NCBI GenBank assembly: GCA_947630345.1
Contig: CANRHF010000002.1
Coordinates: 1 to 59,759 of the forward strand
DNA length: 59,759 nucleotides
Source of the DNA: an uncultured Oscillospiraceae bacterium
Lineage (GTDB): Bacteria > Bacillota > Clostridia > Oscillospirales > Oscillospiraceae
Direction: 5' to 3'
Shown: one piece after another, positions 136 through 47,096 of the stretch
Position numbering within the stretch: the first letter of the stretch is position 1
Layout: each line of letters opens with the position of its first letter
Position numbers and translations under genes: made by a program
Notes under the pieces: generated by a model
Seen by the model: only the letters and a program-made list of their open reading frames with translations
Told to the model about the DNA's origin: nothing
The model's database searches: none

Positions 136-1155
136 TCACCGATTTCCATACATCCTTTGATAATAATTCTGGTAATCGCCAGAGATGATCTCCTCCCACC
201 AAGTCTTGTGGTCGAGATACCACTGGATCGTCTTCCGGATGCCGTCGGCAAATTTCGTCTCAGGCAGCCAGCCCAGCTCGCTGTGGATCTTTGCCGGGTC
301 GATGGCGTAGCGCATATCGTGGCCCTTGCGGTCAGTGACGTAGGTGATGAGGCTCTCCGGTTTGCCAAGGGTTTTGCAGATCAGCTTCACGATGTCGATA
401 TTCCTCATCTCGTTATGCCCGCCGATATTATACACTTCACCGTCCCGGCCCTCGCGGAGGATGCGGTCAATCGCCTTGCAGTGATCCTCAACGTAGAGCC
501 AGTCGCGGACGTTTTCGCCCTTACCGTAAACCGGAAGGGGCTTGTCGTTCAGCGCGTTCGCAATCATCAGCGGGATCAGCTTCTCCGGGAATTGGTACGG
601 ACCGTAGTTATTCGAGCAGCGGGAGATTGTCACCGGCAGGCCAAACGTGCGGTGGTACGCGAGGACGAGCAGGTCGGCGCTCGCCTTCGAGGCGCTATAT
701 GGGCTGGAGGCGTGGATCGGCGTGGTCTCTGTGAAAAACAGATCCGGCCGGTCCAGGGGCAAATCGCCGTAAACCTCGTCCGTCCCCACCTGATGAAACC
801 TTTGGATGCCGTATTTCCGGCAGGCGTCCATCAGCACCTGCGTGCCGAGAATGTTCGTCTGGAGGAATACCTCCGGGTTCTCGATGCTGCGGTCGACGTG
901 GCTCTCCGCCGCGAAGTTGACAACCACGTCGGGCTTCTCTTCTTCAAAAAGCTTATACACGCCCTCTCGGTCGCAGATGTCGAGCTTTACAAAGCGGAAG
1001 TTCGGGTCATCCATCACATCTTTCAGCGTACTGAGATTACCCGCGTAGGTCAGCTTGTCCAAGCAGACGATTCGGTCCTCCGGGTGATTTTCCAGCATGA
1101 AAAAGATGAAATTCGAGCCGATGAATCCGGCGCCGCCGGTCACGAGAATAGTCAT
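136..1155 (-). CDS. rfbB: dTDP-glucose 4,6-dehydratase
   Basis: [16 protein letters not shown] Rossmann start; [23 protein letters not shown] and [18 protein letters not shown] are RmlB motifs. Confidence 0.95.
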
Positions 1156-2030
1156 TTTGTTTCCTCCGCAAGAGACATCAGATACTGTCCGTATTCTGTC
1201 ATTTTCAGTTCTTCGCCGAGCGTTCTCATCTGTTCAGTCGTGATGAATCCGCGCCGCCACGCAATCTCTTCAATGCACGAGATATAGAACCCCTGCATCT
1301 CCTGCACCGCTTTCACAAAGCTGCTCGCCTTGTGCATTCCGTTGGGGGATCCCGTATCCAGCCACGCCATTCCGCGGCCCATCAGCGTCACACGCAATTT
1401 TCCCCGCCGCAGATATTCGTTATTCACAGCGGTGATCTCCAGCTCTCCCCGCGCGGAGGGCTGCACATGCTTCGCAATCTCCACGACCTCGTTATTGTAG
1501 AAATACAGTCCAGGCACGGCGTAATTGGACTTCGGTTCCTGTGGCTTTTCCTCAATGGACAGGACGCGATTGTTTTTATCAAATTCCACAACGCCGAACT
1601 CTCTCGGATCCTTCACCGGGTAGCCGAAGATCGTCGCGCCATCCTTTTCCGCCTGCCGCTTCGCCTCGTCCAGTGTAGTCGAGAAGAACTGCCCGTAAAA
1701 CACATTGTCGCCCAGAATAAGGCACACGCTGTCCTTCCCGATGAACCCCTCGCCGAGGATAAACGCATCCGCCAGGCCCCGGGGCCTGTCCTGCACCGCG
1801 TATGTAAACCGTACACCGATCCGCGAGCCGTCGCCGAGGAGCTTTTTGTAATGCTCAATATCCTCGGGCGTCGAGATAATGAGGATCTCGCGGATCCTTG
1901 CAAGAAGCAGGATCGACAGGGGATAATAGATCAGCGGCTTGTCGTAGACGGGCAAAAGCTGTTTGGAAACGGAAATCGTGTTTGGGTAGAGCCTTGTCCC
2001 TTTGCCACCTGCTAGAATGATGCCTTTCAT
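1152..2030 (-). CDS. rfbA: glucose-1-phosphate thymidylyltransferase (trimmed to [16 protein letters not shown] start)
   Basis: [43 protein letters not shown] upstream of the ATG at 2030; overlaps rfbB start. Confidence 0.95.
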
Positions 2031-2166: not shown

Positions 2167-3345
2167 TCATCTTTCATGGCGCAAATATTCTTTTACGTTT
2201 TCAAAATACGCGATCGCGTGCTCGATGCACACATCCATGTTGTAATACTTAAATTCCGCGAGCCGGCCGCAGAGGAACAGATTCTTATACTTTGCAGCCT
2301 CCTCAAGATACCGGCCATATAGCGCCTCGCTCTCCTGGGTCACCACCGGGTAGTACGGAATATTCCCGACCTTGGCGTTCGGATCGTACCAGAGCGGGTA
2401 CTCGGTAGCGACGACGCTTCCTCGCGCGCCGCTGTCGTCAAACATGATCTTCCTGTATTCCGTACTGCGCGTTTTCCCTTCCGCCTGCGGGAAGGAAATG
2501 ATCTCCGACGGCAAGACATCCTCCGATTCGCTGGATTCGTACCGGATATCCAACGAACGGTACGGGAGACTGCCGAATTTGTACTGGAACAGCTCGTCGA
2601 TCGGCCCGGTGAAGATCAGGAGCTCCACCTCATCGGCGTCATAGGTGATCTTGTTTGTCCGCTCCTCCAGGGCAATGTGCTCAAGCGCGTCCGTCTCCAA
2701 GCGAACGTCGATGTTCGGATGATCCAGCATATTTCGGAAGATCTCCGTAAACCCTTTCTTGGGCAGGTACTGAAAATCCTTATTCAGGTATCGCTCGTCG
2801 TAATTCATCGCGAACGGGACCCGTTCCAATACATATTTGTCGATCTTATTGACGTCCGTCCCCCACATTTTAGAGGTGTAGGTCCGAAACGCCTTTTCAA
2901 ACAGCAGCGTCCCAAATTCGGAAACTTCCCGGTCCGGGCAGTCAACAATCTGCAAAATCGGAACACGGTCGCTACCGGGAAAATTTTCCCGCAGTTTCCG
3001 CAGGACCGTCTCCGCCCGCTTCGCGCCGATCAGCTCCTGCACGGACTGAAAGTTGAACGGCAGACGGATATACTGTCCGTCTAGAAAGCTCAGGAGCTTC
3101 GTGTTATGCGGGAAAAGCTCCGCGTACTGGGACAGGTATTCGATGATCCAATATTTATTGGTGTTGAGAAAATGCGGTCCGTAGCGCTGCACGAGGATCC
3201 CGTGCTCGTCGTATTCATCGTACATATTTCCACCGATATGGCCGCGCTTTTCCACGACCTCCACTTTGCGGCCGCATTCCTCCGCAATCTTCCGCGCGAG
3301 GATGCTCCCCGAAAAGCCCGTGCCGACAACAATGATCCTACCCAT
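2167..3345 (-). CDS. glf: UDP-galactopyranose mutase
   Basis: MGRIIVVGTGFSGSILARKIAEE FAD-binding start; GPHFLNTNKYWI; CGRLAEFKYYNMDVCIEHA C-terminal Glf motif. Confidence 0.93.
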   Translation of the reverse strand: MGRIIVVGTGFSGSILARKIAEECGRKVEVVEKRGHIGGNMYDEYDEHGILVQRYGPHFLNTNKYWIIEYLSQYAELFPHNTKLLSFLDGQYIRLPFNFQSVQELIGAKRAETVLRKLRENFPGSDRVPILQIVDCPDREVSEFGTLLFEKAFRTYTSKMWGTDVNKIDKYVLERVPFAMNYDERYLNKDFQYLPKKGFTEIFRNMLDHPNIDVRLETDALEHIALEERTNKITYDADEVELLIFTGPIDELFQYKFGSLPYRSLDIRYESSESEDVLPSEIISFPQAEGKTRSTEYRKIMFDDSGARGSVVATEYPLWYDPNAKVGNIPYYPVVTQESEALYGRYLEEAAKYKNLFLCGRLAEFKYYNMDVCIEHAIAYFENVKEYLRHER

Positions 3346-3356: not shown

Positions 3357-4271
3357 TTACAAGTTTTCTTTGACCCACGCCGCTGTTTTCAGGATGCTTT
3401 CCCGGAAATCCGCCGTACACTCGAAGCCGGTGTCGCGGTAAAGCGCATCGAGGTCGATCTTGCTGTAATTTCGGCTGCTGTTGTCGTCCGGGTACGCCCC
3501 AAACAGCAGCGGTACACCCGGCGCGACGATCTGTCCAATGTCCGTCACATATGCGCGGAAGGTGCGGAGCGTCCTGTGCCCCACATAATAACTGCGAAGA
3601 TGAACGCCCCGCTCCCCTATGGCGTAGAACGCACGGGCAATGTCGTCGATATAAATGAAGTCATACGGAATGTTTCCTTCAATGAGGCGGGGACTTTCTC
3701 CCCGGACCAGCTGCTTCAGCACGACGTTTGCCAGCATCATGGAGCGATTGTTTTGGCCGTAAGACATGGCGGTCAGCCCGGCGCTGTACTCGATGCCGGA
3801 ATTCGCGGCGATCGTTTTGCAGACGATCTCGGCGGCGGTCTTTGCGGCGGAGTAGATACAGGTATATCGGGGCGACTGCCCGCTCATATCGAGATGGTCC
3901 GCCACTTCGATCTCATTGTATGTACCTGCAAAGACAAACTTTTTGCAGCCGATTTGGACCGCTTCGGTGATGGCATCCCCCGCGCTCGCCGCGTTGGAAA
4001 GCTGAAGACGGTAATCCTTGAACGGTTCTCCGAACACGCCCTGCCACGCGAAGTGATAGAACACATCAACGTCATCGCAGATCATCTCATGGAGATGGTC
4101 ATACTTTGTAAAGTCCGCGACCACAGGATGGAAGTTCGCTTTTCCGCTATGCCTTGCAAGCGCTCGCTCGGAGATATCCACCCCGTAGACGGTAACGCCT
4201 TTATTGAGCAGAAGTTCTGTCAGCGCGCCGCCGATGAACCCGCCCGCGCCTGTGACAATGGCTGTTTTCAT
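3357..4271 (-). CDS. NAD-dependent epimerase/dehydratase (SDR), candidate nucleotide-sugar 4-ketoreductase/epimerase
   Basis: MKTAIVTGAGGFIGGALTELLL GxxGxxG; YSAAKTAAEIV YxxxK; start codon overlaps the stop of the upstream gene (ATGA). Confidence 0.85.
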   Translation of the reverse strand: MKTAIVTGAGGFIGGALTELLLNKGVTVYGVDISERALARHSGKANFHPVVADFTKYDHLHEMICDDVDVFYHFAWQGVFGEPFKDYRLQLSNAASAGDAITEAVQIGCKKFVFAGTYNEIEVADHLDMSGQSPRYTCIYSAAKTAAEIVCKTIAANSGIEYSAGLTAMSYGQNNRSMMLANVVLKQLVRGESPRLIEGNIPYDFIYIDDIARAFYAIGERGVHLRSYYVGHRTLRTFRAYVTDIGQIVAPGVPLLFGAYPDDNSSRNYSKIDLDALYRDTGFECTADFRESILKTAAWVKENL

Positions 4272-5227
4272 GCAGCCACCGCCTTTCGAGCGGCAGCCAG
4301 CAGGATAACTTTATATTCAGTTACCCCCCCCCGGGTATTATTTGGGGTCTGTGATTTAAGCCAATTTGCCGTTTTCAGAATGCTCTCCTTAAAATCGGAT
4401 TGACACTCGAAGCCGACCGGGATTTCTTTCGTCAGCTCTGTGTAATCTATGTATGTATTCTCCGGCATTTCGCCAAAAACGAAACGCCTTTCAGGACAGA
4501 TTGCTGCGCCCATATCCGTGATTTTTTCTCTGAACGTCGAAATGCTTTTGTGGCCTATATAGTACTCATTGTACGGTTTTCCTTTTTCCGCAAGACAAAT
4601 CAAGCCCCTAACTGTATCGTCAATGTATACCCAGTCGTTCGGATTATTGCCCTGAACAAGCTTAAGCGGCAGACTGTTTTGCATGGCGTTTATAATAGTG
4701 TTTACAGCCTTTCTGGAGCGATCGCCCACACCGTAGGTGTTTGTTAAAACTGCTTTGACATACTCCGTTCCGGCCTGCGAGCATATCTGCGCGCAGATAT
4801 CCCCCGCCGCGCGTTTTGCTATACCGTATGTGTTGATGGAAAAATCTCCTGTCGTCTCGCTTTTCATGTGCTCATAACTCGAACTTACGAAGACAAATCT
4901 TTTGCAGATATTCAAAGCATCTTTGCATACCTTAGCAGCGGTTCTAATGTTATCCGTCTGCAATTCAACATCATATAAATCCTTGCCCCCAAGTGTGCCG
5001 CCCCATGAAAGATAAAACATCACATCAGCTATTTCTGGGATTCTTTCCGAAAGATTTTCAGCGGTTAAATCTATAGCAATAGGAGCAAAATTTTCGAACT
5101 GACAGAGCGGGTCAAGATATTCAGCCTTTATGTCCGCGCCGTAGACCTTACACCCCAGATTCAGGAGTGCTTTCGTCAGCGCGCCGCCAATAAATCCGCC
5201 CGCGCCTGTTACAATGGCTGTTTTCAT
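4268..5227 (-). CDS. NAD-dependent epimerase/dehydratase (SDR) with a C-terminal tail encoded after a G9 tract
   Basis: MKTAIVTGAGGFIGGALTKALL; YGIAKRAAGDIC; G9 at 4324-4332 followed by tail VTEYKVILLAAARKAVAA. Confidence 0.85.
   Translation of the reverse strand: MKTAIVTGAGGFIGGALTKALLNLGCKVYGADIKAEYLDPLCQFENFAPIAIDLTAENLSERIPEIADVMFYLSWGGTLGGKDLYDVELQTDNIRTAAKVCKDALNICKRFVFVSSSYEHMKSETTGDFSINTYGIAKRAAGDICAQICSQAGTEYVKAVLTNTYGVGDRSRKAVNTIINAMQNSLPLKLVQGNNPNDWVYIDDTVRGLICLAEKGKPYNEYYIGHKSISTFREKITDMGAAICPERRFVFGEMPENTYIDYTELTKEIPVGFECQSDFKESILKTANWLKSQTPNNTRGGVTEYKVILLAAARKAVAA
4324..4332 (-). repeat. G9 homopolymer (C9 on + strand) inside the 3' end of the SDR gene
   Basis: Direct reading: tta-ccccccccc-gggtatt on + strand. 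Confidence 0.97.
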
Positions 5228-5238: not shown

Positions 5239-5793
5239 TCAGAAATTCACATCACTGTCTTTCAAAAACGGTGCGTTTCTGTCTTTCTCGGAAACGATCG
5301 GCGTGATGTCTCCCCAGTCAATCCTGATCTCCGGGTCGTTCCACGCGATCGCTCGGTCGTATTTAGGCTCGTATAGCTCGTCCACTTTGTACTGCACTTC
5401 CGTATCATCGACAAGTGACATGCAGATGTGTCCGAACCCTCTCGGAATATAGATTTGCTGCTTTTTCACATCGTCTAATACAACAGAAACGTACTGCTTG
5501 TAGGTGGGCGACGCTTTCCGCAAATCGACCGCAATATCGAGGATCTTCCCTCTCGTACAGCGCAGCAGCTTTGCCTGCGCTTTCGGAGCATTTTGAAAAT
5601 GGATGCCTCGAACAGTATGCTTTTTCAGGTTGCGCAGGTGGTTATCCTGCACAAAGACATTGTCGATTCCAAATTCAGCCATCGTCCGCTTCGAATAGGA
5701 CTCCATGTAATAACCGCGATAATCCTCAAAAACCTTCGGCGTAAAGAGGATCACTTCGGGAATGGCGAGTCGCTCTGCTTTCATTCTTTTCAC
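5239..5793 (-). CDS. rfbC: dTDP-4-dehydrorhamnose 3,5-epimerase family protein
   Basis: VFEDYRGYYMESYSKRTMAEFGI, FVQDNHLRNLKKHTVRGIHFQ, IYIPRGFGHICMSL: RmlC cupin motifs. Confidence 0.92.
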   Translation of the reverse strand: MKRMKAERLAIPEVILFTPKVFEDYRGYYMESYSKRTMAEFGIDNVFVQDNHLRNLKKHTVRGIHFQNAPKAQAKLLRCTRGKILDIAVDLRKASPTYKQYVSVVLDDVKKQQIYIPRGFGHICMSLVDDTEVQYKVDELYEPKYDRAIAWNDPEIRIDWGDITPIVSEKDRNAPFLKDSDVNF

Positions 5794-5826
5794 CCTTTCA
5801 TCAATAAATCACCTAGACCCTCTTGG

Positions 5827-6858
5827 TCAAGCTGCTAATAAGTGAGGACTGGAATGTTCATTGATGAAAGTTTGAATTCTATTATGGATATGGGGTATAT
5901 CCCTGCTTTTTTCAAAAGATAAACTGACTAAGTATCTAAACCCCCCCCCAGCAATTTTAGCGGGTTTCTTCTGAGAATTCATCCATGCCAAAATAGATCG
6001 GCGTACCGTAATCCCCTGCAATTTCAGCTTTGAGGAATCAAACACTGTATTTCCCGATTCGATCTTGCGGTCAATCTCCGGGTACTCAACATAGTCAATC
6101 CCCACCCCGTACAAGGGCGCAATTAGCTCTGCCAATTCCTTTAGGCTAAGGTCGTCTCCTCCAATGTTATAAATGTCGTTTACGCACTTCTCGGAAACTG
6201 CCCCATCGATCAAGTTGTTGCACAGATCTTCAATATGTGTAAACGTGCGCCTCACTTCTCCGTTTCCGTACAGTCGGATATTCTCGCCCTTCATCGCTCT
6301 ATTCCGCATGAACTCTACCGTTCCGTAAGAAGACGCCCCCGGGATCAGAGATCCATAGGGAACACAGATCCTGAAAATGCAATACCGCACACCGTATACG
6401 CGGCTGAACTGCTCCAGATACTGTTCACAGGCAAATTTATTGATCGAGTAAATGGTTCGAAATTCCTTTTCGTCCGTCTCTTTCAAGGGCATGCTGCTGC
6501 CTTTATAGACTAACCTTGTCGAAGGAAAAACGATCTTTGCTTTAGATCCCTGTTCCCTATAAGCTTCGAGGACATGAAGCAACGCGCGCTCGTTGATGTC
6601 AATAAATGTATCATAGTCGTCAAAACCTGCAGCTGAACCGGTCTTCCCGATGAACATAAAGACAACATCGGCATCTAGGTCTATATTGGAAACAGACGCT
6701 CTATCCAGAATCTGTACTTTTTCATATGCCTGTTCTCCATCTGCGTGCGTATCAGCGCGGTCGTAGAGCCGGAGCAGTACGTTTGGGAACCTTCTTTTCA
6801 AAACGACAAGAAGATTTCGCGCGATATAACTGTTCGCTCCAATAACCGTAACTTTCAT
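5827..6858 (-). CDS. NAD-dependent epimerase/dehydratase (SDR) with a C-terminal tail encoded after a G9 tract (start trimmed to MKVTVIGANSYIARN)
   Basis: MKVTVIGANSYIARNLLVVL; YSINKFACEQYLE; G9 at 5941-5949 encodes AGGGF then the tail. Confidence 0.85.
   Translation of the reverse strand: MKVTVIGANSYIARNLLVVLKRRFPNVLLRLYDRADTHADGEQAYEKVQILDRASVSNIDLDADVVFMFIGKTGSAAGFDDYDTFIDINERALLHVLEAYREQGSKAKIVFPSTRLVYKGSSMPLKETDEKEFRTIYSINKFACEQYLEQFSRVYGVRYCIFRICVPYGSLIPGASSYGTVEFMRNRAMKGENIRLYGNGEVRRTFTHIEDLCNNLIDGAVSEKCVNDIYNIGGDDLSLKELAELIAPLYGVGIDYVEYPEIDRKIESGNTVFDSSKLKLQGITVRRSILAWMNSQKKPAKIAGGGFRYLVSLSFEKSRDIPHIHNRIQTFINEHSSPHLLAA
5941..5949 (-). repeat. G9 homopolymer (C9 on + strand) inside the 3' end of the SDR gene
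   Basis: Direct reading: ctaaa-ccccccccc-agcaatttt on + strand. Confidence 0.97.
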
Positions 6859-6892
6859 CAAATTCACCTCCCATCCCAAATTATCTTCTTTT

Positions 6893-7906
6893 CTATTGGT
6901 TTTTAACCGCATCGACAAGCTCCGCCTGCCGCGCGATCGTCTCATAATTCATTTCTCTTGTTTTTTCGTCCGCAACACACTTACAGAAATGCTCTATGGA
7001 CTTTCTGAACGTGTCGTCCGCGCTAAGCTTTACGGTCTCAGTCTCGTTGCCGATTGTAATTTCCGCTGTTGGCTCGAAACCGTCCGGCGCGGTCAAAATT
7101 CGACCTGTTCTCAAAAAGCCCTTGCTTCCCCAGACCTCCAGCTCGCACTTGTAGCTGTTGTCCATGCCGAACGCGATCTGCGCCGTCACGCCCGCGTCGT
7201 TCACCATCGCCGCGCTGCCGTAGATGTCCACGTCAAAATCGGGGGTGCAGTTGAGGCGGGAATAGACTACCCGCGCCGTCTCGCCCAGCAGCATGGCTGC
7301 CAATTTCAGCGTATATCCGCCGCAGTCGAGAAGCGCGCCGCCGCCCAGGGCTTTGTTGTAGCGGAAGTCGTTCTTCGCGCGCTGTGGGAACCCGAACGCG
7401 ATTCGGTACAGCCGCACGTCGCCGAGCCTGCCGCTCTTGACGATATCCTGTATCTCGCCGATCTGTTTGTGGAACGCGAACATATAATTCTCGTGAACAG
7501 CGAGACGCTTCGCTCCGGCGAGATCGATCAGCTCTTTCGTATCTTTCTCAGAGGTAGTAGAGGGCTTTTCGAGGAAAATGTGCTTACCGTGCTCCAGCGC
7601 CGCCTTTGCCCACCTGAAATGCAGCGCCGGCGGCAACGGCAGATAGACCGCGTCCACATCCGGCGAGGACAGGAGCGCTTCATAACTGTCGAAGACCGTG
7701 CCGCCGCAGACGTCGGCGAAGGACTGAGCTTTCTTCGCCTCACCGGCAATCACCGCCGGGTCCGGCGTCCGGTCCCCAAACCACTCTTTTTCGTCGGCGT
7801 GGGCCACACCGACGTACTCGGCGCAGTCGCACTTTTGAATCGCGGGCAGGAAGCGCCGGAACGCGATCTCAGAGGGACAGATGATGCCGATTTTTACTTT
7901 TTTCAT
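6893..7906 (-). CDS. Gfo/Idh/MocA-family oxidoreductase; candidate NDP-hexose 3-ketoreductase
   Basis: KVKIGIICPSEIAFRRFLPAIQ; DAVYLPLPPALHFRWAKAALEHGKHIFLEKPSTT (EKP motif). Confidence 0.88.
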   Translation of the reverse strand: MKKVKIGIICPSEIAFRRFLPAIQKCDCAEYVGVAHADEKEWFGDRTPDPAVIAGEAKKAQSFADVCGGTVFDSYEALLSSPDVDAVYLPLPPALHFRWAKAALEHGKHIFLEKPSTTSEKDTKELIDLAGAKRLAVHENYMFAFHKQIGEIQDIVKSGRLGDVRLYRIAFGFPQRAKNDFRYNKALGGGALLDCGGYTLKLAAMLLGETARVVYSRLNCTPDFDVDIYGSAAMVNDAGVTAQIAFGMDNSYKCELEVWGSKGFLRTGRILTAPDGFEPTAEITIGNETETVKLSADDTFRKSIEHFCKCVADEKTREMNYETIARQAELVDAVKNQ

Positions 7907-7907
7907 A

Positions 7908-9272
7908 TCACCACTCCAATACCGACAAAAGATTTCTAAGCTGGATATTCAGGCAGTTGTTGACCTTCACAAGTGCGCCGAGAGTCTTATAGTTCGTCCA
8001 GAAATACCCTTCCGGGGGCGCGGGCAACTCGTCCGCCTCGACTTCCACCACGACGTTTCGGTTCTGCTCGTGATAGAACCGCCCCCCCTCCTCGGAAAGC
8101 AGCGTGTCGAACTTGACGCCCTTCCCGGTCTTCAGGTGCGCGTCGAACAGTTCATCCACCGCAGTGTCCTTCGCTTCGTCGTGGATATACTCCCGCTGCA
8201 CCGACGGCCCCAGCTCGATCTTGTCGAAGCACCCGACCTCCGGCGTCGCGCGGACGAGAAATTCCCGAACGCCACGATAAACGCGGGTCAGCAGACCGAA
8301 CGTGGCGATCCCCGCCGCCTCAAACAGCGGCTGGCGCCAGTGCCGGACCTCCCGCCCCTCGATCTCGATGTCGCAGAACACAACCTTGAAGCTGTACGGC
8401 TCCTTGCAGACAAATTCCCCGTTTCGCGTCTCCCATTTTTCGAGGGAAAACAGCGGGACGAGCCGCCGCTCGCTCTCATCGAACATTTTGTAATTGTTGA
8501 TGTACTGATAGATCTCCGAAAGATTGTCCCTTCCCCCGCCCAGCACGGAGCGCAGCAATGCGGCGTCCGTAAACTCGCTGAGATGCTCCTCCAGCGGCAG
8601 ACAGGACAGCACCGTTCGCGTATCCATGTTGACGAGGTTGTCCTCACGCATGAGCGCTTTGATTTGCGGCATCGTCATCCACCTGTGCGACGGCAGCACC
8701 TCGACATCCTCATTTTCGGCGAGTTCGATGATGATGTTCCGGTTGCGCTTGCCGAGAAACCGGGACGACTGCTCCGACTGGATCTGGTCAACGACGATCC
8801 TATAGTTCGACGCATGGATAAAGTAGTCGAGATAGGCGGGTTTCGCGCCGCCGTGCTTTTGCGTAAAGTTCGACTTCGTCGCCTGGATTGTCGGGGAGAG
8901 CTGGATCTTGTTGATGTTTCCCGGCTCGATCTTCGCCTGCATGAGATAGTGCATCTCGCCGCCGATCCGCTTGCGGATGATGCCGAGATAGCCGATCTCG
9001 TTCTGCAGGAGGGTGGGCTGCTCGAGGAGCGTCCTTTCCCCTTCCGTCACGCGAAGCCCCGCGATCTGGAAGAAGCTCCCCGCGGGATTGCGGACCGTGC
9101 CCGATTCGCTGTCGTAATACCAAGGCGCGCATTGATCCAGCGTTGTTTTGTCAATCCGCACATGGATCGAGGCGTTGCGATTCTTGATCCAGGAAAAGAT
9201 ATCCGCCGTCGGGTGTAAAGGCATACCCGCTGTTTCCATACTATGATCGTTAAATGGAATAGAATGTGCCAT
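7908..9272 (-). CDS. NDP-hexose 2,3-dehydratase family protein (TylX3/EvaA/SpnO type)
   Basis: Internal duplication typical of the family: IQLSPTIQATKSNFTQKHGGAKPAYLDYF ... LLSEEGGRFYHEQNRNVVVEVE ... GYFWTNYKTLGALVKVNNCLNIQLRNLLSVL. Confidence 0.9.
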   Translation of the reverse strand: MAHSIPFNDHSMETAGMPLHPTADIFSWIKNRNASIHVRIDKTTLDQCAPWYYDSESGTVRNPAGSFFQIAGLRVTEGERTLLEQPTLLQNEIGYLGIIRKRIGGEMHYLMQAKIEPGNINKIQLSPTIQATKSNFTQKHGGAKPAYLDYFIHASNYRIVVDQIQSEQSSRFLGKRNRNIIIELAENEDVEVLPSHRWMTMPQIKALMREDNLVNMDTRTVLSCLPLEEHLSEFTDAALLRSVLGGGRDNLSEIYQYINNYKMFDESERRLVPLFSLEKWETRNGEFVCKEPYSFKVVFCDIEIEGREVRHWRQPLFEAAGIATFGLLTRVYRGVREFLVRATPEVGCFDKIELGPSVQREYIHDEAKDTAVDELFDAHLKTGKGVKFDTLLSEEGGRFYHEQNRNVVVEVEADELPAPPEGYFWTNYKTLGALVKVNNCLNIQLRNLLSVLEW

Positions 9273-10466: not shown

Positions 10467-11696
10467 TCAATTATTGCGTTTCCGGAGGCCTGTAAAGATG
10501 ACAGCCGCTTGAATCGCATCCTGAACGAAATAAGAAGCGATCATCGCGTAAGCGCCTCCGTAAATTCCAAATTCTTCAACAAAGCCGTTGATGGAAAAAA
10601 CCATTAACACCAGTGCGGTGATAATAGCCGCAGCCACTGCGCCATTCTTTCGCATGGAGGTTAAAACCCCGTTTCCCACGAGTGTGAGCGCATAGAGGCA
10701 AGAGGCAGCAATCGCCCAATAAAGAAGCTGAAAATAGCTGAGGATCTCCTCCCCAAAAATCAAGCGCATAATCGGCCTGCCCAGGAGCGCAACCGCCGCC
10801 ATCGCGAGCAGCATGAAGAGCGTCACCCCACCGTAACAGATGAACATCGATCTGCGCATCCGCTTCCAGTCTCCTTCATTCCACTGCTTTGCCAGCTCAG
10901 GCAGGAAAGCATATGAAATCATAGGCACAATCACAGAAATCAGCACCGTGATCGTAAATACGCTGGAGAACGCCCCTAGTTGTTCTTCTCCAAGCTGCAG
11001 CTGGATCGTGCGCCGCGGCATTGCGGTAATGCAAATCGGCAGGGTTATGCCCAGCATAATTGGAAAACACTTTTTCAAAAGTCGAATGACGCCCTTGAAA
11101 TCGTCTCCGAAGAAGGCGATCTTTTCCCCGGTGACCCGTTTGTACACCGGCACATCGAAGAGGAGGACCACCAGAATGTCGCTAAATGCCATCGCCAGCA
11201 GCGCCTGAAGCAAACTGCGTGTAAGCCAGAAAGTAATGATAAACGAGACAAAAGCGAAAAAACCACGAATAACATTGGAATACCCGTTAAATTCCAGCCG
11301 GCCCTTGAACTGCACATAAGCATAGATCGTTTCTGAGGCGTTATTGCAGAAGAGATACAGAAGGTATATTGCTATCGCGACCCGTTCCTCGGTCGTGTAT
11401 CCCCCTGCCGGCACAATATATGCGCAGAAAGCAATCAACGACACGACAGTTGCCATCAGCGACGCGGTGAGGTACTGTCTCTGTGTGAATTCCCCGTTGA
11501 CGTCCGTAATTCGGAAATTACGCAGATTGTAGTACGCAATTGAAGAAAAGATATTGCCAATTGACATTGCCAACGAGAAAATACCGGCTGTCTCGAATCC
11601 GTCCATGCGCACCAGCACCACAGAAATCAGCCACTGCGCAAACGCCAGCGCCACCGAACCAATTGTGTTGATCGCCGCCTGCATCCCTGTTTTCAA
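10467..11696 (-). CDS. Polysaccharide flippase (Wzx/MATE-like), copy 1
   Basis: Multi-TM protein; GIFSLAMSIGNIFSSIAYYNLRNFRITDV; IMLGITLPICITAMPR. Confidence 0.8.
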   Translation of the reverse strand: MKTGMQAAINTIGSVALAFAQWLISVVLVRMDGFETAGIFSLAMSIGNIFSSIAYYNLRNFRITDVNGEFTQRQYLTASLMATVVSLIAFCAYIVPAGGYTTEERVAIAIYLLYLFCNNASETIYAYVQFKGRLEFNGYSNVIRGFFAFVSFIITFWLTRSLLQALLAMAFSDILVVLLFDVPVYKRVTGEKIAFFGDDFKGVIRLLKKCFPIMLGITLPICITAMPRRTIQLQLGEEQLGAFSSVFTITVLISVIVPMISYAFLPELAKQWNEGDWKRMRRSMFICYGGVTLFMLLAMAAVALLGRPIMRLIFGEEILSYFQLLYWAIAASCLYALTLVGNGVLTSMRKNGAVAAAIITALVLMVFSINGFVEEFGIYGGAYAMIASYFVQDAIQAAVIFTGLRKRNN

Positions 11697-13165: not shown

Positions 13166-14191
13166 TTAGAAATTGAGACTCATAATTAGTTCTTTATTAT
13201 ATCCGCTTTCTTCATGTACCGATTCGCTCTCTTTACTCTCTTCAAAATTCAGCCGGCATTCTTCCACAACCAGAGGACGGTTCATCACGCGCGCATTGAT
13301 CGCCATGATATACTCGCCCATAAAACCCATGAACGCAAGCTGAACGCCGCCCATGAAGAAGACCGCAATGATGATCGGCGCATAACCCGCCGGAAAACGA
13401 TCCCAGAAGATCAGTTTGGCGATCAGCAGCCCGATCGCCCCCAAAATACTGAGAACGGCGACCAAAATCCCAAAAAATGTCGCGATTCGCATGCCGAGCT
13501 TCGTGTAGCTCGTAAAGCTCAACATCGCCGCGTCGTATAGCGTAAAGAAATTGTTGTGCGTTTTGCCCGCGCGCCGCAGGGGCTGCTCGTATTCGATCTC
13601 CTTGCGTTCCGGCCCCAGCTCCGCCACGATCCCCCGCATGAACGGCGTGGGATCCTTTAGCTCCCGCAGGACCTGAACAAAGCTCTTGTCATACAGGCCA
13701 AATCCGGTGAACTGTTCGATCATATCTACCGAACTCATTGTGCGAATGAGCTTATAATAACAGCCGCGGAGAAAATACAGGATCTTGCTCTCTTTGCTGC
13801 GGGTCTTCTTGCCGATCACGACCTTATACCCGCTTTCCCACTCGTGTACAAACCGAGGAATCATTTCGACGGGATCCTGAAAATCGCAGCACATCGTAAT
13901 GGTGCAATCTCCAGTCGTCTGGAGGAGGCCGTGCATCGGCGAGTTGAACTGTCCGAAATTCTTGCAGTTGAAGATGGCCTTCACGCATTTATTCTCCGCG
14001 CAGATCTCGCGAAGGATCTCTCTTGTCCTGTCTGTCGATTTATTATCAATAAACAGGATCTCATAATTGTATTGCGGGCAGCTTTCATTCAGCTGCTTCC
14101 ACACCGCTTCATAGATCGGCCGGACGTTTTCCTCCTCGTTGTAGCACGGGATTAGAACAGAAATTTTTTTCTTGTCACCCAAGGTACTCAT
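13166..14191 (-). CDS. GT2 glycosyltransferase with two C-terminal TM helices (GtrB/ArnC/DPM1-like)
   Basis: KISVLIPCYNEEENVRPIYEAV; LFIDNKSTDRTREILRE; C-terminal TM pair ATFFGILVAVLSILGAIGLLIAKL and PIIIAVFFMGGVQLAFMGFMGEYI. Confidence 0.88.
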   Translation of the reverse strand: MSTLGDKKKISVLIPCYNEEENVRPIYEAVWKQLNESCPQYNYEILFIDNKSTDRTREILREICAENKCVKAIFNCKNFGQFNSPMHGLLQTTGDCTITMCCDFQDPVEMIPRFVHEWESGYKVVIGKKTRSKESKILYFLRGCYYKLIRTMSSVDMIEQFTGFGLYDKSFVQVLRELKDPTPFMRGIVAELGPERKEIEYEQPLRRAGKTHNNFFTLYDAAMLSFTSYTKLGMRIATFFGILVAVLSILGAIGLLIAKLIFWDRFPAGYAPIIIAVFFMGGVQLAFMGFMGEYIMAINARVMNRPLVVEECRLNFEESKESESVHEESGYNKELIMSLNF

Positions 14192-15119
14192 CCTTTACCC
14201 ACTCGATTGTTTTCCGAATTCCATCCGCGAACGCAGTCTGCGGGACGAACCCGGTATCTCGCTGCAGTTCTGTAATGTCAGCCTGCAGGTGCATCACCTG
14301 TACGGGGCTGTATGCTACCTGGCCGAATCCCAACGGCAGGCTCGGGTCAATCGCGTCACGAAGAATCTGAACATATTCCCGCAACGGGCAAACCGTTCCT
14401 GTGCCAAGAACATAAAGCTTCCCATCGACACCGCGTTCTGCCGAAAGATACAGCGCTGAAGCGGCGTCATCTGCATATAAATAATCCCACAGCTGTTCTC
14501 CTGCGGTAAGCGCCGGCTGCTCCCCGGCGAGGAGCTGCCGGATCACAGAGGAGATCATACTGTTTTGGCCGTCTCCAGGGCCATATACACTGAGCACGCG
14601 CGCCCAAATATGCGCTATGCCGAGCTTTTTGCATTCGACCCGGCTCATCTGCCCCGCGCAGAGCTTCGCCATTCCGTATCCGTTTTCCGGGAAGCACGGC
14701 GTCTCAGGCTTTAATGCCCCCTCTACTCGGCCGTATTCAGCCTGGCTTCCCGCACCGACAAACACCTTGCAGCCTAGCGCCGCAGCAGCCCGAACCGCCG
14801 CAATCGTGTTGTTCACGTTTCCGATCTGTACCGGCATATCGTTTCGGGCGTCACCGACCGTACCGGCCCACCCGAGGTGGAAAAACACGTCTGCCTGCCC
14901 GGAAATTTTCCGGGGAAGGTTGTCGATTTCCGAGAGATCCAGCTCGACCGTATGAACGAGGTCGTGCTTTGGAACCGCACTCATGCGCGCGCTCCCCGGT
15001 CGGACGACCGCAAATACCTCTACGTTTTCTCGAATCAGTTTCCGTATCAGCGCCGTACCGATTGCCCCGGTAGGGCCGGTAATGACGGCTGAACGAATGT
15101 TACGGTGCCACAGATCCAT
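14175..15119 (-). CDS. NAD-dependent epimerase/dehydratase
   Basis: SAVITGPTGAIGTALIRKL; YGMAKLCAGQMSR; LWDYLYADDAASAL. Confidence 0.85.
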   Translation of the reverse strand: MDLWHRNIRSAVITGPTGAIGTALIRKLIRENVEVFAVVRPGSARMSAVPKHDLVHTVELDLSEIDNLPRKISGQADVFFHLGWAGTVGDARNDMPVQIGNVNNTIAAVRAAAALGCKVFVGAGSQAEYGRVEGALKPETPCFPENGYGMAKLCAGQMSRVECKKLGIAHIWARVLSVYGPGDGQNSMISSVIRQLLAGEQPALTAGEQLWDYLYADDAASALYLSAERGVDGKLYVLGTGTVCPLREYVQILRDAIDPSLPLGFGQVAYSPVQVMHLQADITELQRDTGFVPQTAFADGIRKTIEWVKDEYLG

Positions 15120-16703: not shown

Positions 16704-17015
16704 TTAGCTCTTTTCAAACAGGGGAATCAGCATATTCTCCGCGAGTTCCTCGTCGCTAAGTGCCGGGGACATGTACTCGAGCGGCAGGGACTCCATCTGC
16801 CCGTCGGATCGTTTGTAGGACACCTGCTTGGGGACGGCCGTGAGCTCTATGGGGGTCTTGACCTCAATAATCATGGGGCCTTCATATTCCAGAGCCTTGC
16901 GCACCTTCTCGTCAAGCTCGCCGTTGTTCTCTATGATCTCCGTTTTAAGGCCGAAGGCATTGGCGACGGCCGCAATCGGCGGGATCGACAGATTCGAGCT
17001 CTCGTTGCAGGCCAC
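16704..17015 (-). pseudogene. C-terminal remnant of a second TPP-dependent (acetolactate-synthase-like) enzyme
   Basis: ACNESSNLSIPPIAAVANAFGLKTEIIENNGELDEKVRKALEYEGPMIIEVKTPIE resembles the end of a TPP-binding C domain; roughly 500 N-terminal residues are missing. Confidence 0.7.
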
Positions 17016-17745: not shown

Positions 17746-19557
17746 TCAAAAAGGATAACGGTTTGACTCATATTCTTCTCTTGAAAGAAAAGGAAACATG
17801 TCGTCCATTGACGGGGAAACGATACTTCCGTCGGCAAGGACCTTTGATGAAAGCTTTGGTACAAAATTCTGCTCCGGGTCAACAACAACGTTGCACAATA
17901 CAGGTCCAGGGGTAGAAAGCGCCTTGCGGACAATCTCGGCGGCAGATGGCTCATTGTCCAGCAGAAGATAGGAAAACCCAAAGGCTTCCGCAAGCTTTTC
18001 AAAGTCGGGGAAGCCCACGCCAGTGCTCGGATCAAGCCCAATAAGCGGCGGCTTAAAAAGATTTCGCTGTGTTTGCCTAATTGAATGATATCCGTTGTTA
18101 TTCAGGACGAACAGCTTGATGTTGAGCTTGTTATATGCGATCGTGGCAAGCTCCTGGACATTCATCATAAGGCTGCCATCGCCATCCACACAGAGGACCC
18201 GACCGCCCTTTTCCTGACGCGCCACTGCCGCGCCAAGCGCAGCCGGAAGTCCGTATCCCATTGCGGCGCAGCCGGAATTTGTAAACATTCTCTGTCCCTG
18301 TTTGATCCTGCACCCCTGGAATGTCATAACGCATGCGCTCCCGTTCCCGAGCGTCAGTACGTCGTCCGAGTTCATTTCAGAAAAAAGAACATCCACAAAA
18401 ACATATGGATTTAAGAGCTCACCCTGACCGTGGTGGTACTCAGGAAGCACAGCAGGATATTTTTCAACCATCATCCGGCACCAGGATACCCAGCGTGCGT
18501 GCTCCGCGTTCACTTGATAGGGCAGGGAGAGGAGCGTCTCCATGACCTGCTTCACATCCCCCAAAACCGGCATATCAGGAACAAAAGTGGGCTTTTTAAG
18601 CTCATTTTCGTCGATGTCCACCATGATCTTGTAGGCGTTTTTTGCGAAATCGTTTTTATTATAAGTTATCGTCCGAATATTCATCCGGCTCCCAAGCACG
18701 AGCAGGAGGTCACAGTTCTGGACGATAAAGCTGCTGCCGCGCGTTCCCTCACGGCTGGGCGATCCGGCATAATAGGGGTTGTCGTAGGCGACAAGATCCC
18801 CGGAATTCCACGCCAGCGCAACAGGGACCTTCAGCTTCTCGACCAGGCGAAGGAGCAGGCCATTCGCTCCGGAAAGCCGAACGCCGTAGCCGGCAAAAAT
18901 CAGCGGGGCCTTTGCTTTTGAGATGAGACTCAGTATCTTCTTCGCGGTTTCGGTGGGAACATCCGGGATCCCGGCTCCGCAGTCTTCCCCTTTCGGGTCA
19001 AAGTGAACGAGCCCGTCGGTCTCAATCTTCGCGCCCTGTACATCCAGCGGAATATCAAGCCACACCGGACCCTGGCGCCCCGATGTTGCGAGGAACCACG
19101 CCTTCTCAAGGTGATAGGCGATTTTCTCCGGCTCTGTGACCATAACACAGTATTTTGTCATATTGGAGACAGAATGTATAATATCAAATTCCTGATCTCC
19201 CAACTGACGCAGATCAAGATCAGGCACGGCCCACAGTGTTGTCTCTCTCTTGACCTGACCCGAAAGGATAAACATGGGGATGCTGTCGAGCCATCCACCC
19301 ATCACGCCCGTGATGGCATTCGTCCCCCCTGGGCCGCTGGTAACGCATACGCTTGCAATCCGCCCGGTGAGGCGTGCGTAAGCCTCGGCAGCTATAGCGC
19401 ACCCTTGCTCATTGTGGTTGAAGACGTTTCGGATCTTTCTATTGTGCCCCAAAGCGTCATCCAATTGCATGGCACCGCCGCCCGTAACCATAAAATTATG
19501 CGTAACACCGTGATCGACGAGAAAATCGGCAATATAATCTGCCAAGCGCACTACCAT
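17746..19557 (-). CDS. Thiamine-pyrophosphate-dependent enzyme (acetolactate-synthase-like; possible YerE-type)
   Basis: HNEQGCAIAAEAYARLTGRIASVCVTSGPGGTNAITGV; TPP motif VLCVDGDGSLMMNVQELATIAYNKLNIKLFVLNNNGY. Confidence 0.88.
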   Translation of the reverse strand: MVVRLADYIADFLVDHGVTHNFMVTGGGAMQLDDALGHNRKIRNVFNHNEQGCAIAAEAYARLTGRIASVCVTSGPGGTNAITGVMGGWLDSIPMFILSGQVKRETTLWAVPDLDLRQLGDQEFDIIHSVSNMTKYCVMVTEPEKIAYHLEKAWFLATSGRQGPVWLDIPLDVQGAKIETDGLVHFDPKGEDCGAGIPDVPTETAKKILSLISKAKAPLIFAGYGVRLSGANGLLLRLVEKLKVPVALAWNSGDLVAYDNPYYAGSPSREGTRGSSFIVQNCDLLLVLGSRMNIRTITYNKNDFAKNAYKIMVDIDENELKKPTFVPDMPVLGDVKQVMETLLSLPYQVNAEHARWVSWCRMMVEKYPAVLPEYHHGQGELLNPYVFVDVLFSEMNSDDVLTLGNGSACVMTFQGCRIKQGQRMFTNSGCAAMGYGLPAALGAAVARQEKGGRVLCVDGDGSLMMNVQELATIAYNKLNIKLFVLNNNGYHSIRQTQRNLFKPPLIGLDPSTGVGFPDFEKLAEAFGFSYLLLDNEPSAAEIVRKALSTPGPVLCNVVVDPEQNFVPKLSSKVLADGSIVSPSMDDMFPFLSREEYESNRYPF

Positions 19558-19609
19558 CGGTCAAACCGTCCTTTCGATAAGGCTATCCGCTGAAAATTCA
19601 TTATCGGGT

Positions 19610-21256
19610 TCAAATCGCCCCGCTGAATTTATCCTGAGTAAACGTATACCTAGAAAAAGTCAGAAAGCTCAACTTCATATCTGCGTATTCCTTCTCCAGG
19701 ACATCTCGGATATGATGGTTCATCTGGCCGGCCTGGTCACGGATGAAGGAATATTCCATACGGGGGTTAAAATAGTTATCATCCTGATCGGAGTATCCGT
19801 CAAAACCGGCCAAATATATCTCCTGTACTCCGCACTGTTTGAGAAGCCTCAAAAGCATGAGCATGGAATTGTCCGCAATGTTCTGCCCCTTCTCCAAAAG
19901 CGGCTCTCTTGTAAAAACATACGAAAAAGGCTGTTGCTTTGACTCTACATTGGAGGTCGCGATGATCTTTAAGGGATGCTCCCTTTCCTCCAAAAGCTCC
20001 TCTGTCATTGCAAGGTAACGGCTGGATTTTGTCACAAAAACATAATCTACGGGAATTCCCTCGGGGATATAATTGATGGAAATGATCAGAGGATTTTCTC
20101 TTTTTATAAAACCGTCCACCTTATCCCGCTGCAATGTGATATTTGGTCCGGGGCCAATCAGTAGGATCGGCTTTTTCTGCGCAAGCTGCGCGCTGAATTT
20201 CTCAATGTTGGCATCGTCGTCGTACCTTTCCGATCTGTACTCCTCAAATGCCCTCTCCCCCGCTTCTCTGTCATACAGGAGCTTGCTATCCTCCGGGCCT
20301 ATTTGTTCAAGCGTCTCATTCAACCCACGAATCGAAAGGTCAGGCTTGCCCTGAAGTTGTTTTACATAGTTGGGATGCACACCGTTGTGAGCGCAAAGAT
20401 AGAAATACATCTTATAGCCCCACGGCGTTTCCCGGTAAAAATCCATAACGCTCTCGTCAATCGCCTCCAGGATCGGTCCAAGGCGATATGCTTTTCCATA
20501 TTTTTGATTGAGGTATGGCACGATCAGCTCAACAGGCAGATTCCCGGCACTCTTTCCCATCCCGTACAGTGAAGCGTCCACAACTATATTGCGTTTGGGC
20601 GAGATCTCGTCCACAAATGTCATCGTGTTGGCGAAAGCAAGCTGGAGATTATTGTGGCCGTGGTAGCCCATTATGATTTCTTCGGAAAGGTTCTCGTCAA
20701 GGATTGTTGCGATGTGTCGAAGCTTATCCGGATCTAAAAGGCCATAAGTGTCAACAATGGAAAGTGCATAGGGCTTTACCTGATTTGCAAGCCCGATCAC
20801 CTCGAGCAGCTCACTGTCCGTATAGCTGGTGATTGAAACCAGCTGGGAAAAAACCTTATATCCAAGCGCCTTGACCTGCGCGCAGAACTTCATCGCCTCA
20901 TGCATTCTGTATTTCTTGAATATGACACGGATCCCGTCCAGCATACTTTCCGAACAAGGCTGGAGATGTGGCAGACTGCAGGTGCCATAATCGATCATTC
21001 CAACGGTTATCGGAGGACGTTTTTTTACTTTTCCGTAAATTTTATCCACCGAGGAGGTATCTGGCATAATGCTACGGTCAAGGTCGAAGGGCCTGCGCTC
21101 ATCCAGAAAGCCGACCTCTACAACATCCACCCCGGAATCGACCAGGCGGGAGAAAATGCTGCAAAGATTGTCATTCCCAAATTTCCAATCGTTTACATAC
21201 CCACCGTCGCGAAGTGTGCAGTCCAACAAACGAATCGTCTTGCTCGTATCATTCAT
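19610..21256 (-). CDS. Aldolase-domain (DRE-TIM/HMG-CoA-lyase-like) protein with an extra C-terminal Rossmann/DUF115-like domain
   Basis: IRLLDCTLRDGGYVNDWKFG; IIMGYHGHNNLQLAFANTM; C-terminal KPILLIGPGPNITLQRDKVDGFIKRENPLIISINY. Confidence 0.8.
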   Translation of the reverse strand: MNDTSKTIRLLDCTLRDGGYVNDWKFGNDNLCSIFSRLVDSGVDVVEVGFLDERRPFDLDRSIMPDTSSVDKIYGKVKKRPPITVGMIDYGTCSLPHLQPCSESMLDGIRVIFKKYRMHEAMKFCAQVKALGYKVFSQLVSITSYTDSELLEVIGLANQVKPYALSIVDTYGLLDPDKLRHIATILDENLSEEIIMGYHGHNNLQLAFANTMTFVDEISPKRNIVVDASLYGMGKSAGNLPVELIVPYLNQKYGKAYRLGPILEAIDESVMDFYRETPWGYKMYFYLCAHNGVHPNYVKQLQGKPDLSIRGLNETLEQIGPEDSKLLYDREAGERAFEEYRSERYDDDANIEKFSAQLAQKKPILLIGPGPNITLQRDKVDGFIKRENPLIISINYIPEGIPVDYVFVTKSSRYLAMTEELLEEREHPLKIIATSNVESKQQPFSYVFTREPLLEKGQNIADNSMLMLLRLLKQCGVQEIYLAGFDGYSDQDDNYFNPRMEYSFIRDQAGQMNHHIRDVLEKEYADMKLSFLTFSRYTFTQDKFSGAI

Positions 21257-21292
21257 ATCAATATCCCCCAATGCATCCTTGCTTTCCTGTCT

Positions 21293-22633
21293 TCATTTAA
21301 TCGCCTCAAGGATCATCTCTGCCATATAGTCGATCATCTCGTCCGTCATTCCCGGATAAACGCCGACCCAGAAAGTATTATTCATGATAAAATCGGTCCA
21401 TGTAAGATCCCCGGCAACGCGATAGGCGTCTGTGCCGCGGATGCTGTCAAAGCATGGGTGGCGGATCAGATTGCCCGAGAAAAGCAGCCTCGTTTGAATA
21501 TTGTGTTCCTCCAAATAGCGCGTAATCGCGTTCCGTTCAAGCTTGCTTTCCTGACGGACGGAGATCAAAAATCCAAACCACGAGGGCACACTATTCGGCG
21601 CGGGCTCTGGCAAGATCAGCTTGTCCGAGGCGCGCTCCAGCGCGCTGTGGAGCCTCTGCCAGTTGTGGCGGCGTCTTTCGATAAAATCAGGAAACTTTTT
21701 CAGCTGCTCGCAGCCGATCGCCGCCTGCATATCGGTAACCTTCAGGTTATATCCAAAGTGGCTGTATACATATTTGTGGTCATAGCCCTGGGGCAGCTCG
21801 CCGTGCTTTCCATCAAAGCGATGGCCGCAGAAGTTATCGTGCCCGGAGGGACAGACGCAGTCGCGTCCCCAATCTCGGTACGAAAGGATCAGCCTGTGAA
21901 GCAGCGGGTTGTTCGTGTATACGCATCCGCCCTCGCCCATCGTCATGTGATGCGGAGGATAGAAGCTTGAGGTCCCGATGTCCCCCCATGTGCCGGTGTA
22001 TCGCGTCTCATCGCCGATCCTATACTTAGATCCCAACGCGTCGCAGTTATCCTCGACCAGCCACAAACCATATCGGTCGCAAAACGCCTTGACCGCGGCT
22101 AAGTCGAATGGATTCCCCAGGGTGTGCGCGATCATGACCGCCTTCGTCTTTTCACTGCGCGCCGCTTCTAATTTTAAAACATCAATGTTATACTGCGGGA
22201 CCGTCACATCCACAAAAACAGGTACGGCTCCGTACTGAATGGCCGGCGCGACCGTGGTCGGGAATCCGCACGCCACGGTGATGATCTCATCGCCGGGCTT
22301 GATCCGCCGCTCGCCCAGCTCCGGAGCGGTCAGAACGGAAAACGCGATCAAATTTGCTGAAGAACCGCTGTTCACTAGATGCGCGTATTTCACGCCGATC
22401 CACTCCGCAAACTCCTTCTCGAATTTCTCGGCAAAACGTCCGGTCGTCAGCCAGAAATCCAGCATAGCATCGGTAAGCGCGCACATTTCCTTTTCATCAA
22501 AAACCCGAGACGCGTAGGCAATCCTGTTTCCCGGCTGGAACGGGACTGTATTTTCCTTGAAGTCGTGATAATATCGCGCGACAAGCTCCTTAATTTTTTC
22601 TCTTGCCTCGGATTCAGTTTTCCAAATTGGCAT
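21293..22633 (-). CDS. rfbH: CDP-4-keto-6-deoxy-D-glucose-3-dehydrase (E1, PMP-dependent)
   Basis: GDIGTSSFYPPHHMTMGEGGCVYTNN: histidine-bearing E1 motif; VNSGSSANLIAFSVL. Confidence 0.93.
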   Translation of the reverse strand: MPIWKTESEAREKIKELVARYYHDFKENTVPFQPGNRIAYASRVFDEKEMCALTDAMLDFWLTTGRFAEKFEKEFAEWIGVKYAHLVNSGSSANLIAFSVLTAPELGERRIKPGDEIITVACGFPTTVAPAIQYGAVPVFVDVTVPQYNIDVLKLEAARSEKTKAVMIAHTLGNPFDLAAVKAFCDRYGLWLVEDNCDALGSKYRIGDETRYTGTWGDIGTSSFYPPHHMTMGEGGCVYTNNPLLHRLILSYRDWGRDCVCPSGHDNFCGHRFDGKHGELPQGYDHKYVYSHFGYNLKVTDMQAAIGCEQLKKFPDFIERRRHNWQRLHSALERASDKLILPEPAPNSVPSWFGFLISVRQESKLERNAITRYLEEHNIQTRLLFSGNLIRHPCFDSIRGTDAYRVAGDLTWTDFIMNNTFWVGVYPGMTDEMIDYMAEMILEAIK

Positions 22634-22698
22634 GATCGATTTCCTCCAAATTTCCCACTTGTCTGTGATAAAGATACCGCGAACACTATTTGCGATTC

Positions 22699-23754: not shown

Positions 23755-23773
23755 GTATCAATCTCCTGATTCC

Positions 23774-31793: not shown

Positions 31794-31805
31794 GCCAAAC
31801 CCCTG

Positions 31806-35277: not shown

Positions 35278-35283
35278 CTTTCC

Positions 35284-36699: not shown

Positions 36700-36933
36700 T
36701 CTTTCTTCACCATCCGTTCTTTTTTTACGGGAGCCTTTTTCCCTGCGCTCCTTTTTCCCGGAAGGCCACTCCTTTTGCCCGATTCTGAGCGCATAAAAGA
36801 TAAGGCCCGGCACACTTCCCAACTGTTGGCAAGCTGAACCTTGCGGTCGATCCTTTCAACGTGTTGTTAAAAATACAAATCAATAACCTTAAAAATACTA
36901 CGCAAAGCGTCATAATCCACCCATAGCTTTGAT

Positions 36934-41128: not shown

Positions 41129-41179
41129 GGGGCAAAAAACCGGTCAGACGCCTCGCCGCTTTGAAATGATATGAGAAAA

Positions 41180-41204
41180 GGGCCCCGCCGTCAGGCAGGG
41201 TCCC
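41180..41204. terminator. Bidirectional terminator-like hairpin between convergent sbcC and uvrA-like genes
   Basis: GGGACCCTGCC-TGAC-GGCGGGGCCC (minus-strand reading; one G-T pair and one bulge) followed by TTTTCTC; on + strand followed by GTTTCTT. Confidence 0.75.
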
Positions 41205-43728: not shown

Positions 43729-43755
43729 CCTTAAATAGGTGATTTTTTCTCATTC

Positions 43756-43784: not shown

Positions 43785-43788
43785 GAGT

Positions 43789-43818: not shown

Positions 43819-43838
43819 TTGAATATTTTTTGCTGCCG

Positions 43839-47095: not shown

Positions 47096-47096
47096 G

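Follow-up and report, generated by a model that had tools for sequence, protein, structure and literature searches.

The window analysed here is the whole of a 59,759-nucleotide contig (contig C2; CANRHF010000002.1) from an uncultured Oscillospiraceae bacterium, the assembly of which (GCA_947630345.1; 1.97 Mb in 241 contigs) is 87% complete. Within a surface-polysaccharide locus, nine genes that all lie on the minus strand, from 9272 to 136, encode a predicted NDP-hexose 2,3-dehydratase (DH23), a Gfo/Idh/MocA-family oxidoreductase (Gfo), an RmlC-type epimerase, three extended short-chain dehydrogenases/reductases (SDRs; sdrA, sdrB and sdrC), a Glf-family flavoenzyme, RfbA and RfbB (Table 1). 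Neighbouring genes mostly abut or overlap (a single base separates DH23 from Gfo, and the pairs sdrB/sdrA and RfbA/RfbB each overlap by 4 nt); the likely start of sdrC is the ATG at 6858, within an open reading frame (ORF) that reaches 6945, and the contig ends 135 bases beyond rfbB. A preliminary description of this DNA had drawn the module as 5239–9272, which is too narrow, and its gene inventory overlooked the Glf-family mutase; it was right to place rfbA and rfbB in the same operon, as both exceed their NCBIfam cut-offs and are co-directional with the other genes. The G+C content is 48–57% in the polysaccharide half of the window (1–36 kb) versus 61–64% over most of the rest (39000–57000), which is consistent with horizontal acquisition of the polysaccharide region; a link to a phage was rejected, as there was no phage match.

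Table 1. Genes of the operon and their predicted products.
Gene product	Coordinates	Strand	Evidence
DH23, NDP-hexose 2,3-dehydratase (predicted)	7908..9272	-	454 aa; PF03559, two repeats
Gfo/Idh/MocA C3-ketoreductase, KijD10/TylC1 type (predicted)	6893..7906	-	Best PDB match KijD10
sdrC, extended SDR, candidate C4-ketoreductase of the non-epimerised (D) branch	5827..6858	-	PF01370; own clade
RmlC-type 3,5- (or 5-) epimerase (predicted)	5239..5793	-	TIGR01221, 203 bits (cut-off 155.75)
sdrB, extended SDR, candidate C4-ketoreductase	4268..5227	-	PF01370
sdrA, extended SDR, most widely conserved candidate C4-ketoreductase	3357..4271	-	PF01370
Glf-family FAD-dependent pyranose/furanose mutase, proposed dTDP-2,6-dideoxyhexopyranose mutase	2167..3345	-	TIGR00031; GLF domain
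RfbA, glucose-1-phosphate thymidylyltransferase (predicted)	1152..2030	-	TIGR01207, 452 bits (cut-off 361)
RfbB, dTDP-glucose 4,6-dehydratase (predicted)	136..1155	-	TIGR01181, 502 bits (cut-off 365)

DH23 comprises two tandem full-length Hexose_dehydrat (PF03559) repeats (411 bits in total; NCBIfam has no model for this family), and its only relative in the PDB is EvaA (4j7g), which matches with 261 bits across both repeats. The pocket A residues E139 and E190, highlighted as catalytic in EvaA (PMC8987622), align with E116 and E167 of DH23 and are kept in 84 of 84 homologues. An AlphaFold model of DH23 (pLDDT 86.7) retrieves EvaA first (E = 1e-42, TM 0.83 (TMq)), followed by single Nudix domains. 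The repeats, catalytic residues and modelled fold confirm the earlier identification of DH23 as an NDP-hexose 2,3-dehydratase of the EvaA family, with its activity predicted; the modelled fold also answers the structural objection that the preliminary description had named against its own reading. For Gfo, the sugar 3-ketoreductase KijD10 is the closest PDB entry (198 bits, against 94 bits for the next unrelated match). The positions that are altered in deposited KijD10 variants (that is, K120 and Y204 of the chain, which we take to be K102 and Y186 in the published numbering) correspond to K114 and Y198 of Gfo, and both are kept in 84 of 84 homologues. Gfo directly adjoins DH23 in 82 of 83 loci, a pairing that is also found in actinobacterial clusters. 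Given its family, its active-site Lys and Tyr and its link to the dehydratase, we predict that Gfo is a KijD10/TylC1-type sugar 3-ketoreductase, in agreement with its previous assignment to the family of the partner reductases.

With these two enzymes beside RfbA and RfbB, the operon very probably encodes a 2,6-dideoxyhexose pathway. We consider it highly improbable that the dehydratase and 3-ketoreductase are instead vestigial and that the product of RfbA/B, RmlC and an SDR is an ordinary 6-deoxyhexose (rhamnose, 6-deoxytalose or fucofuranose); although RmlC and RfbA/B are enzymes of the rhamnose route, and Glf plus an SDR could make fucofuranose, both supposedly vestigial enzymes are intact, retain all catalytic residues and remain together at nearly every locus. 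The rhamnose reductase RmlD also appears to be lacking, as had been stated (under the name rfbD) for the window: no protein exceeds the cut-off of 224 in the window or in the rest of the 87%-complete genome (the best match, at 53 bits, is RfbB), and RmlD was not found in 21 of 22 cassette-bearing genomes. As the assembly is incomplete and the contig ends so soon after rfbB, this absence is not proven and, because just 23 of the 116 genomes of the class have RmlD above the cut-off (that is, about 80% do without), it is weak evidence by itself; we therefore no longer count it as strong support. If RmlD is truly absent, the product of RmlC would go elsewhere than rhamnose, as RmlC occurs once in this genome, within this operon.

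PF03559 is rare, being present above the cut-off in 2 of 99 relatives (the window genome counted) and 5 of 398 Bacillota genomes, and a scan of 85,462 species genomes yielded 80 loci. These lie mostly in metagenome-assembled genomes (MAGs) of Clostridia from rabbit gut (the host was read from the sample name ‘Lapin’), with further carriers in Oscillibacter, Agathobaculum, Butyricicoccus, Ruminococcus, Longicatena, Desulfosporosinus and Ureibacillus. Oscillibacter ruminantium GH1 (L098), which is cultured, carries a glf-type cassette. The neighbourhoods, which were read with tblastn (several Glf genes lie under antisense ORFs), are of two kinds. In the reductase type the order is DH23-Gfo-{RmlC, SDRs}-Glf-rfbA-rfbB, and in the aminotransferase type it is DH23-Gfo-aminotransferase. 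A Glf 52–74% identical to the window copy is present in 31 of the 39 reductase-type cassettes with enough flanking sequence, nearly always between an SDR and rfbA, and in none of the 18 aminotransferase-type ones. On the dehydratase tree the two types are repeatedly intermingled, and the cassette is therefore not one inherited block. On the same tree, the Bacillota dehydratases form a deep clade of their own (the split of five actinobacterial from 83 other sequences has a support of 100), which rules out recent acquisition from actinobacteria; the label ‘antibiotic-style’ given to the module thus holds for its chemistry and not for its origin.

Several side observations concern these relatives. 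The aminotransferase-type cassettes (L064, L066, L072, L079, L083, L090, L095 and others) occur in many Firmicutes, including Desulfosporosinus, Longicatena and Ureibacillus, which suggests dTDP-amino-2,6-dideoxy sugars on the surfaces of those organisms. In two genomes (G834 and G815), three or more distinct 2,3-dehydratase matches are spread over different contigs, so that each genome probably carries several cassettes. A Bacteroidales bin (L038) and an Oscillospiraceae bin (L041), both from rabbit gut, have near-identical dehydratases (tree distance of about 0.015), a likeness across two phyla that reflects either recent transfer or mis-binning.

The window Glf scores about 350 bits with TIGR00031, and a second Glf of the same genome (contig C6, 12459–13541) scores 414 bits. 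In a tree that took in this second Glf as well as the enzymes of Klebsiella and Deinococcus, all of which fall on the canonical side, the Glfs of the module form one clade (support of 100/100, stem of 1.59) apart from canonical UDP-galactopyranose mutases (UGMs). Because this clade was defined by similarity to the window copy, its linkage to DH23 was also checked in reverse, by searching 388 Clostridia genomes, chosen regardless of DH23, with Glf. PF03559 was found in 6 of the 7 other genomes with a Glf of ≥50% identity (the seventh match is a 136-residue fragment) and in 0 of 15 genomes with only a 34–40% identical Glf (6/7 versus 0/15, Fisher p = 9e-5). The FAD and catalytic positions are kept in the module Glfs, as are the equivalents of the diphosphate-binding residues R174, Y185, R280, Y314 and Y349. 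The Asn that bonds uracil (N270 in the Klebsiella enzyme (kp), N296 in the Deinococcus enzyme (dr)) is Ser in 33 of 33 module Glfs (S285 in the window), Thr, Val or Ala takes the place of the galactose contact (kp N84, dr H109) in 31 of 33 (T83 in the window) and kp F151 is Ala in all 33; the roles of the uracil, galactose and diphosphate residues are given in Table 3 of PMC3624792. These changes would fit another base and a less hydroxylated sugar. The window Glf, in short, matches UGMs in sequence and fold but departs from them in its uracil and galactose contacts and in its tree grouping.

Because Glf belongs to the same operon, a furanose is the likelier end product, and we propose, with a probability of roughly two in three, that the operon is a self-contained cassette for one or more dTDP-2,6-dideoxyhexofuranoses that serve as donors for a surface polysaccharide. 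The preliminary description had RfbA and RfbB feeding a dTDP-2,6-dideoxy sugar into the glycan instead of rhamnose; the dideoxy part is borne out by the dehydratase and 3-ketoreductase residues, the EvaA fold and the failure to find RmlD, and the pyranose form that it implied, in which the operon Glf would make UDP-galactofuranose for the same polysaccharide, we now regard as unlikely. That version gains from a window Glf that passes the UGM cut-off and from reductase-type cassettes that do without Glf, but a canonical Glf with a higher score is already encoded on another contig of the genome, the module Glfs group apart from the canonical ones, go with the dehydratase and are altered at the positions that read uracil and galactose, and aminotransferase-type cassettes never carry one.

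Some observations weigh against a furanose product. Besides the window Glf exceeding the NCBIfam cut-off for UGM, its model superposes only moderately on solved UGMs (TM of about 0.63), the Glf tree was built without Fcf2 and the module clade in it was delimited by likeness to the window copy. Ring contraction cannot be an obligatory step, since Glf is missing from eight reductase-type cassettes that have sufficient flanking sequence. No 2,6-dideoxyhexofuranose is reported in the open-access literature searched (a weak negative, as the search could not handle commas), which may mean either that such sugars are rare or that the idea is wrong. The same search, with the same limit, returned nothing relevant on 2,3-dehydratases in capsule loci (again a weak negative) and no report of a mutase linked with enzymes for 2,6-dideoxyhexoses.

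The epimerase and the SDRs probably determine which isomer is made. RmlC, intact and near the dehydratase as described before, retains H65, K75, Y135 and D153, which are kept in all module homologues. The several SDRs previously noted number three and fall into three clades. Among reductase-type loci, sdrC occurs in 4 of the 6 that lack RmlC and in 2 of the 44 that have it, a distribution suggesting that it reduces the un-epimerised sugar; a role as the general C4-reductase, considered from its position next to Gfo, was dropped, as sdrC is missing from most cassettes. This absence from most relatives makes sdrA and sdrB the likelier reductases after RmlC. The sdrB clade contains 14 sequences, all from loci with rmlC, and tends to accompany the RmlC type of the window, and sdrA is 40–90% identical in most glf-type cassettes, including those of one distant family. 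Two cassettes of one MAG bin (L044 and L045) are near-identical in DH23 (100%), Gfo (98%), Glf (95%), RfbA (100%) and RfbB (99%), yet their RmlC and SDR are only 62% and 40% identical; nucleotide identity falls from about 100% to 45–66% over the RmlC+SDR block and returns to 98–100%. Another bin (L049 and L050) shows the same pattern on shorter contigs. Such pairs look like a sharp intragenomic swap but might also stem from mixed strains in a bin. As the first two cassettes differ only there, the RmlC+SDR block probably sets the stereochemistry. The ends of sdrA and sdrB are similar (99 nt at 78% and 61 nt at 72%) and might allow recombination. With sdrC, RmlC, sdrB and sdrA all present, the window may specify more than one isomer; the L configuration proposed earlier for the case that RmlC acts is possible, and a D series may be made as well. 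That block swapping yields several isomers is, in our estimation, possible rather than probable.

From these observations we infer the following reactions, including the substrate of the mutase, the assignment of SDRs to branches and incorporation into the glycan; all enzyme functions of the module are predictions. RfbA and RfbB would provide dTDP-4-keto-6-deoxyglucose, from which DH23 would remove O2 to give a 3,4-diketo-2,6-dideoxy sugar, and the Gfo/Idh enzyme would then reduce C3. RmlC may epimerise C5 (perhaps also C3), leading to the L series, or be bypassed, leading to the D series, with C4 reduced by sdrC on the D branch and by sdrA or sdrB after RmlC. The Glf-type flavoenzyme would finally contract the pyranose to a furanose, and the resulting dTDP-2,6-dideoxyhexofuranose(s) would feed the surface polysaccharide of this locus. 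The pathway is best read as a new combination of known enzyme types. More tentatively, at somewhat less than even odds, we suggest that these Glfs are a new class specific for dTDP-2,6-dideoxyhexopyranoses that supplies gut Clostridia with a family of 2,6-dideoxyhexofuranoses; the stereoisomer would be chosen by recombination of RmlC+SDR between constant flanks, so that one genome could make several sugars and vary its surface. Were this so, gut Clostridia would routinely build into their surfaces a kind of sugar familiar chiefly from antibiotics, and in a ring form that the literature searched does not report; the pyranose/furanose mutase family would gain a new substrate and glycoengineering a set of additional donors (that is, dTDP-2,6-dideoxyhexofuranoses), and the swap of an epimerase/reductase block would be a simple genetic way of varying a surface glycan. 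For annotation, UDP-galactopyranose mutase should not be the default name of a Glf that shares its cassette with a 2,3-dehydratase.

Elsewhere in the locus, a second deoxysugar branch (17746–24553, with an SDR at 14175–15119) encodes RfbF, RfbG and RfbH (that is, the CDP-4-keto-3,6-dideoxyglucose route), an acetolactate-synthase-like thiamine-pyrophosphate (TPP) enzyme and a 4-hydroxy-2-oxovalerate-aldolase-like (HMGL) protein, the C-terminal half of which has no family assignment, and may make a branched-chain 3,6-dideoxyhexose. Its RfbH (21293–22636) could conceivably also deoxygenate part of the intermediate of the nine-gene operon at C3, as SpnQ does, giving a 2,3,6-trideoxyhexose. We deem this very unlikely: RfbH is a 714-bit family member, in one relative cassette (L033) an RfbH that shares 67% identity with it lies between an SDR and rfbA, and rfbH adjoins a 2,3-dehydratase in Streptomyces lavendulae, but the RfbH of the window sits directly with the CDP-glucose enzymes RfbF and RfbG, 12 kb from the dehydratase, and its simpler role is therefore in CDP-3,6-dideoxyhexose synthesis. 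A 103-amino-acid ORF (16704–17015) that matches only the C-terminal end of TPP enzymes, and is adjoined by the full-length copy (17746–19557), looks like the remnant of a second TPP gene. FnlA-, FnlB/WbjC- and WecB-like enzymes, probably a UDP-L-FucNAc route, are encoded at 30639–36822 with a glycosyltransferase and an initiating sugar-phosphate transferase; together with Wzx (28167) and Wzy (26827), these genes look like the start of a polysaccharide locus. Two unlike flippase-like proteins (10467–11696 and 28167–29627; MatE-like and Polysacc_synt) in one locus suggest that two polysaccharide modules have been joined.

Parts of the proposed route have counterparts in known systems. 2,3-Dehydratases have been described from antibiotic pathways, and EvaA, TylX3 and SpnO of actinobacteria (PMC8987622) resemble DH23 in their two Nudix-like repeats, E139/E190, EvaA fold and pairing with a Gfo/Idh 3-ketoreductase, whereas DH23 belongs to a separate Bacillota clade and to a surface-polysaccharide locus, and is linked to a Glf-type mutase; unlike in those pathways, no polyketide synthase or non-ribosomal peptide synthetase was seen in the window. 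KijD10/TylC1-type 3-ketoreductases include the closest solved structure to Gfo by a wide margin and share with it the Lys and Tyr altered in the variants, although Gfo comes from Clostridia. Glf-family mutases acting on 6-deoxyhexoses are already known (Fcf2 and HS41.17). Campylobacter jejuni HS:41 makes CDP-D-fucofuranose or CDP-6-deoxy-L-altrofuranose and, like the module, combines a 4,6-dehydratase, an RmlC-type epimerase as D/L switch, a C4-reductase and a Glf-type mutase (HS41.17; UniProt Q5M6T4), which is indifferent to C5; its sugars differ in being CDP-linked and keeping O2, without a 2,3-dehydratase (PMC12369002). In Escherichia coli O52, Fcf2 makes dTDP-D-fucofuranose (cited in PMC10888714), and Fcf1/Fcf2 share with the module a dTDP sugar, a 4-ketoreductase followed by a Glf-family mutase and a surface-polysaccharide locus, but have no 2,3-dehydratase or 3-ketoreductase, the sugar being 6-deoxy rather than 2,6-dideoxy. 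That bacterial surface glycans may contain a 2,6-dideoxyhexose, as we propose, has a precedent in the digitoxose of the S-layer O-glycan of Tannerella forsythia (PMC6120980), a member of another phylum for which the searched text of that paper mentions neither a 2,3-dehydratase nor a furanose.

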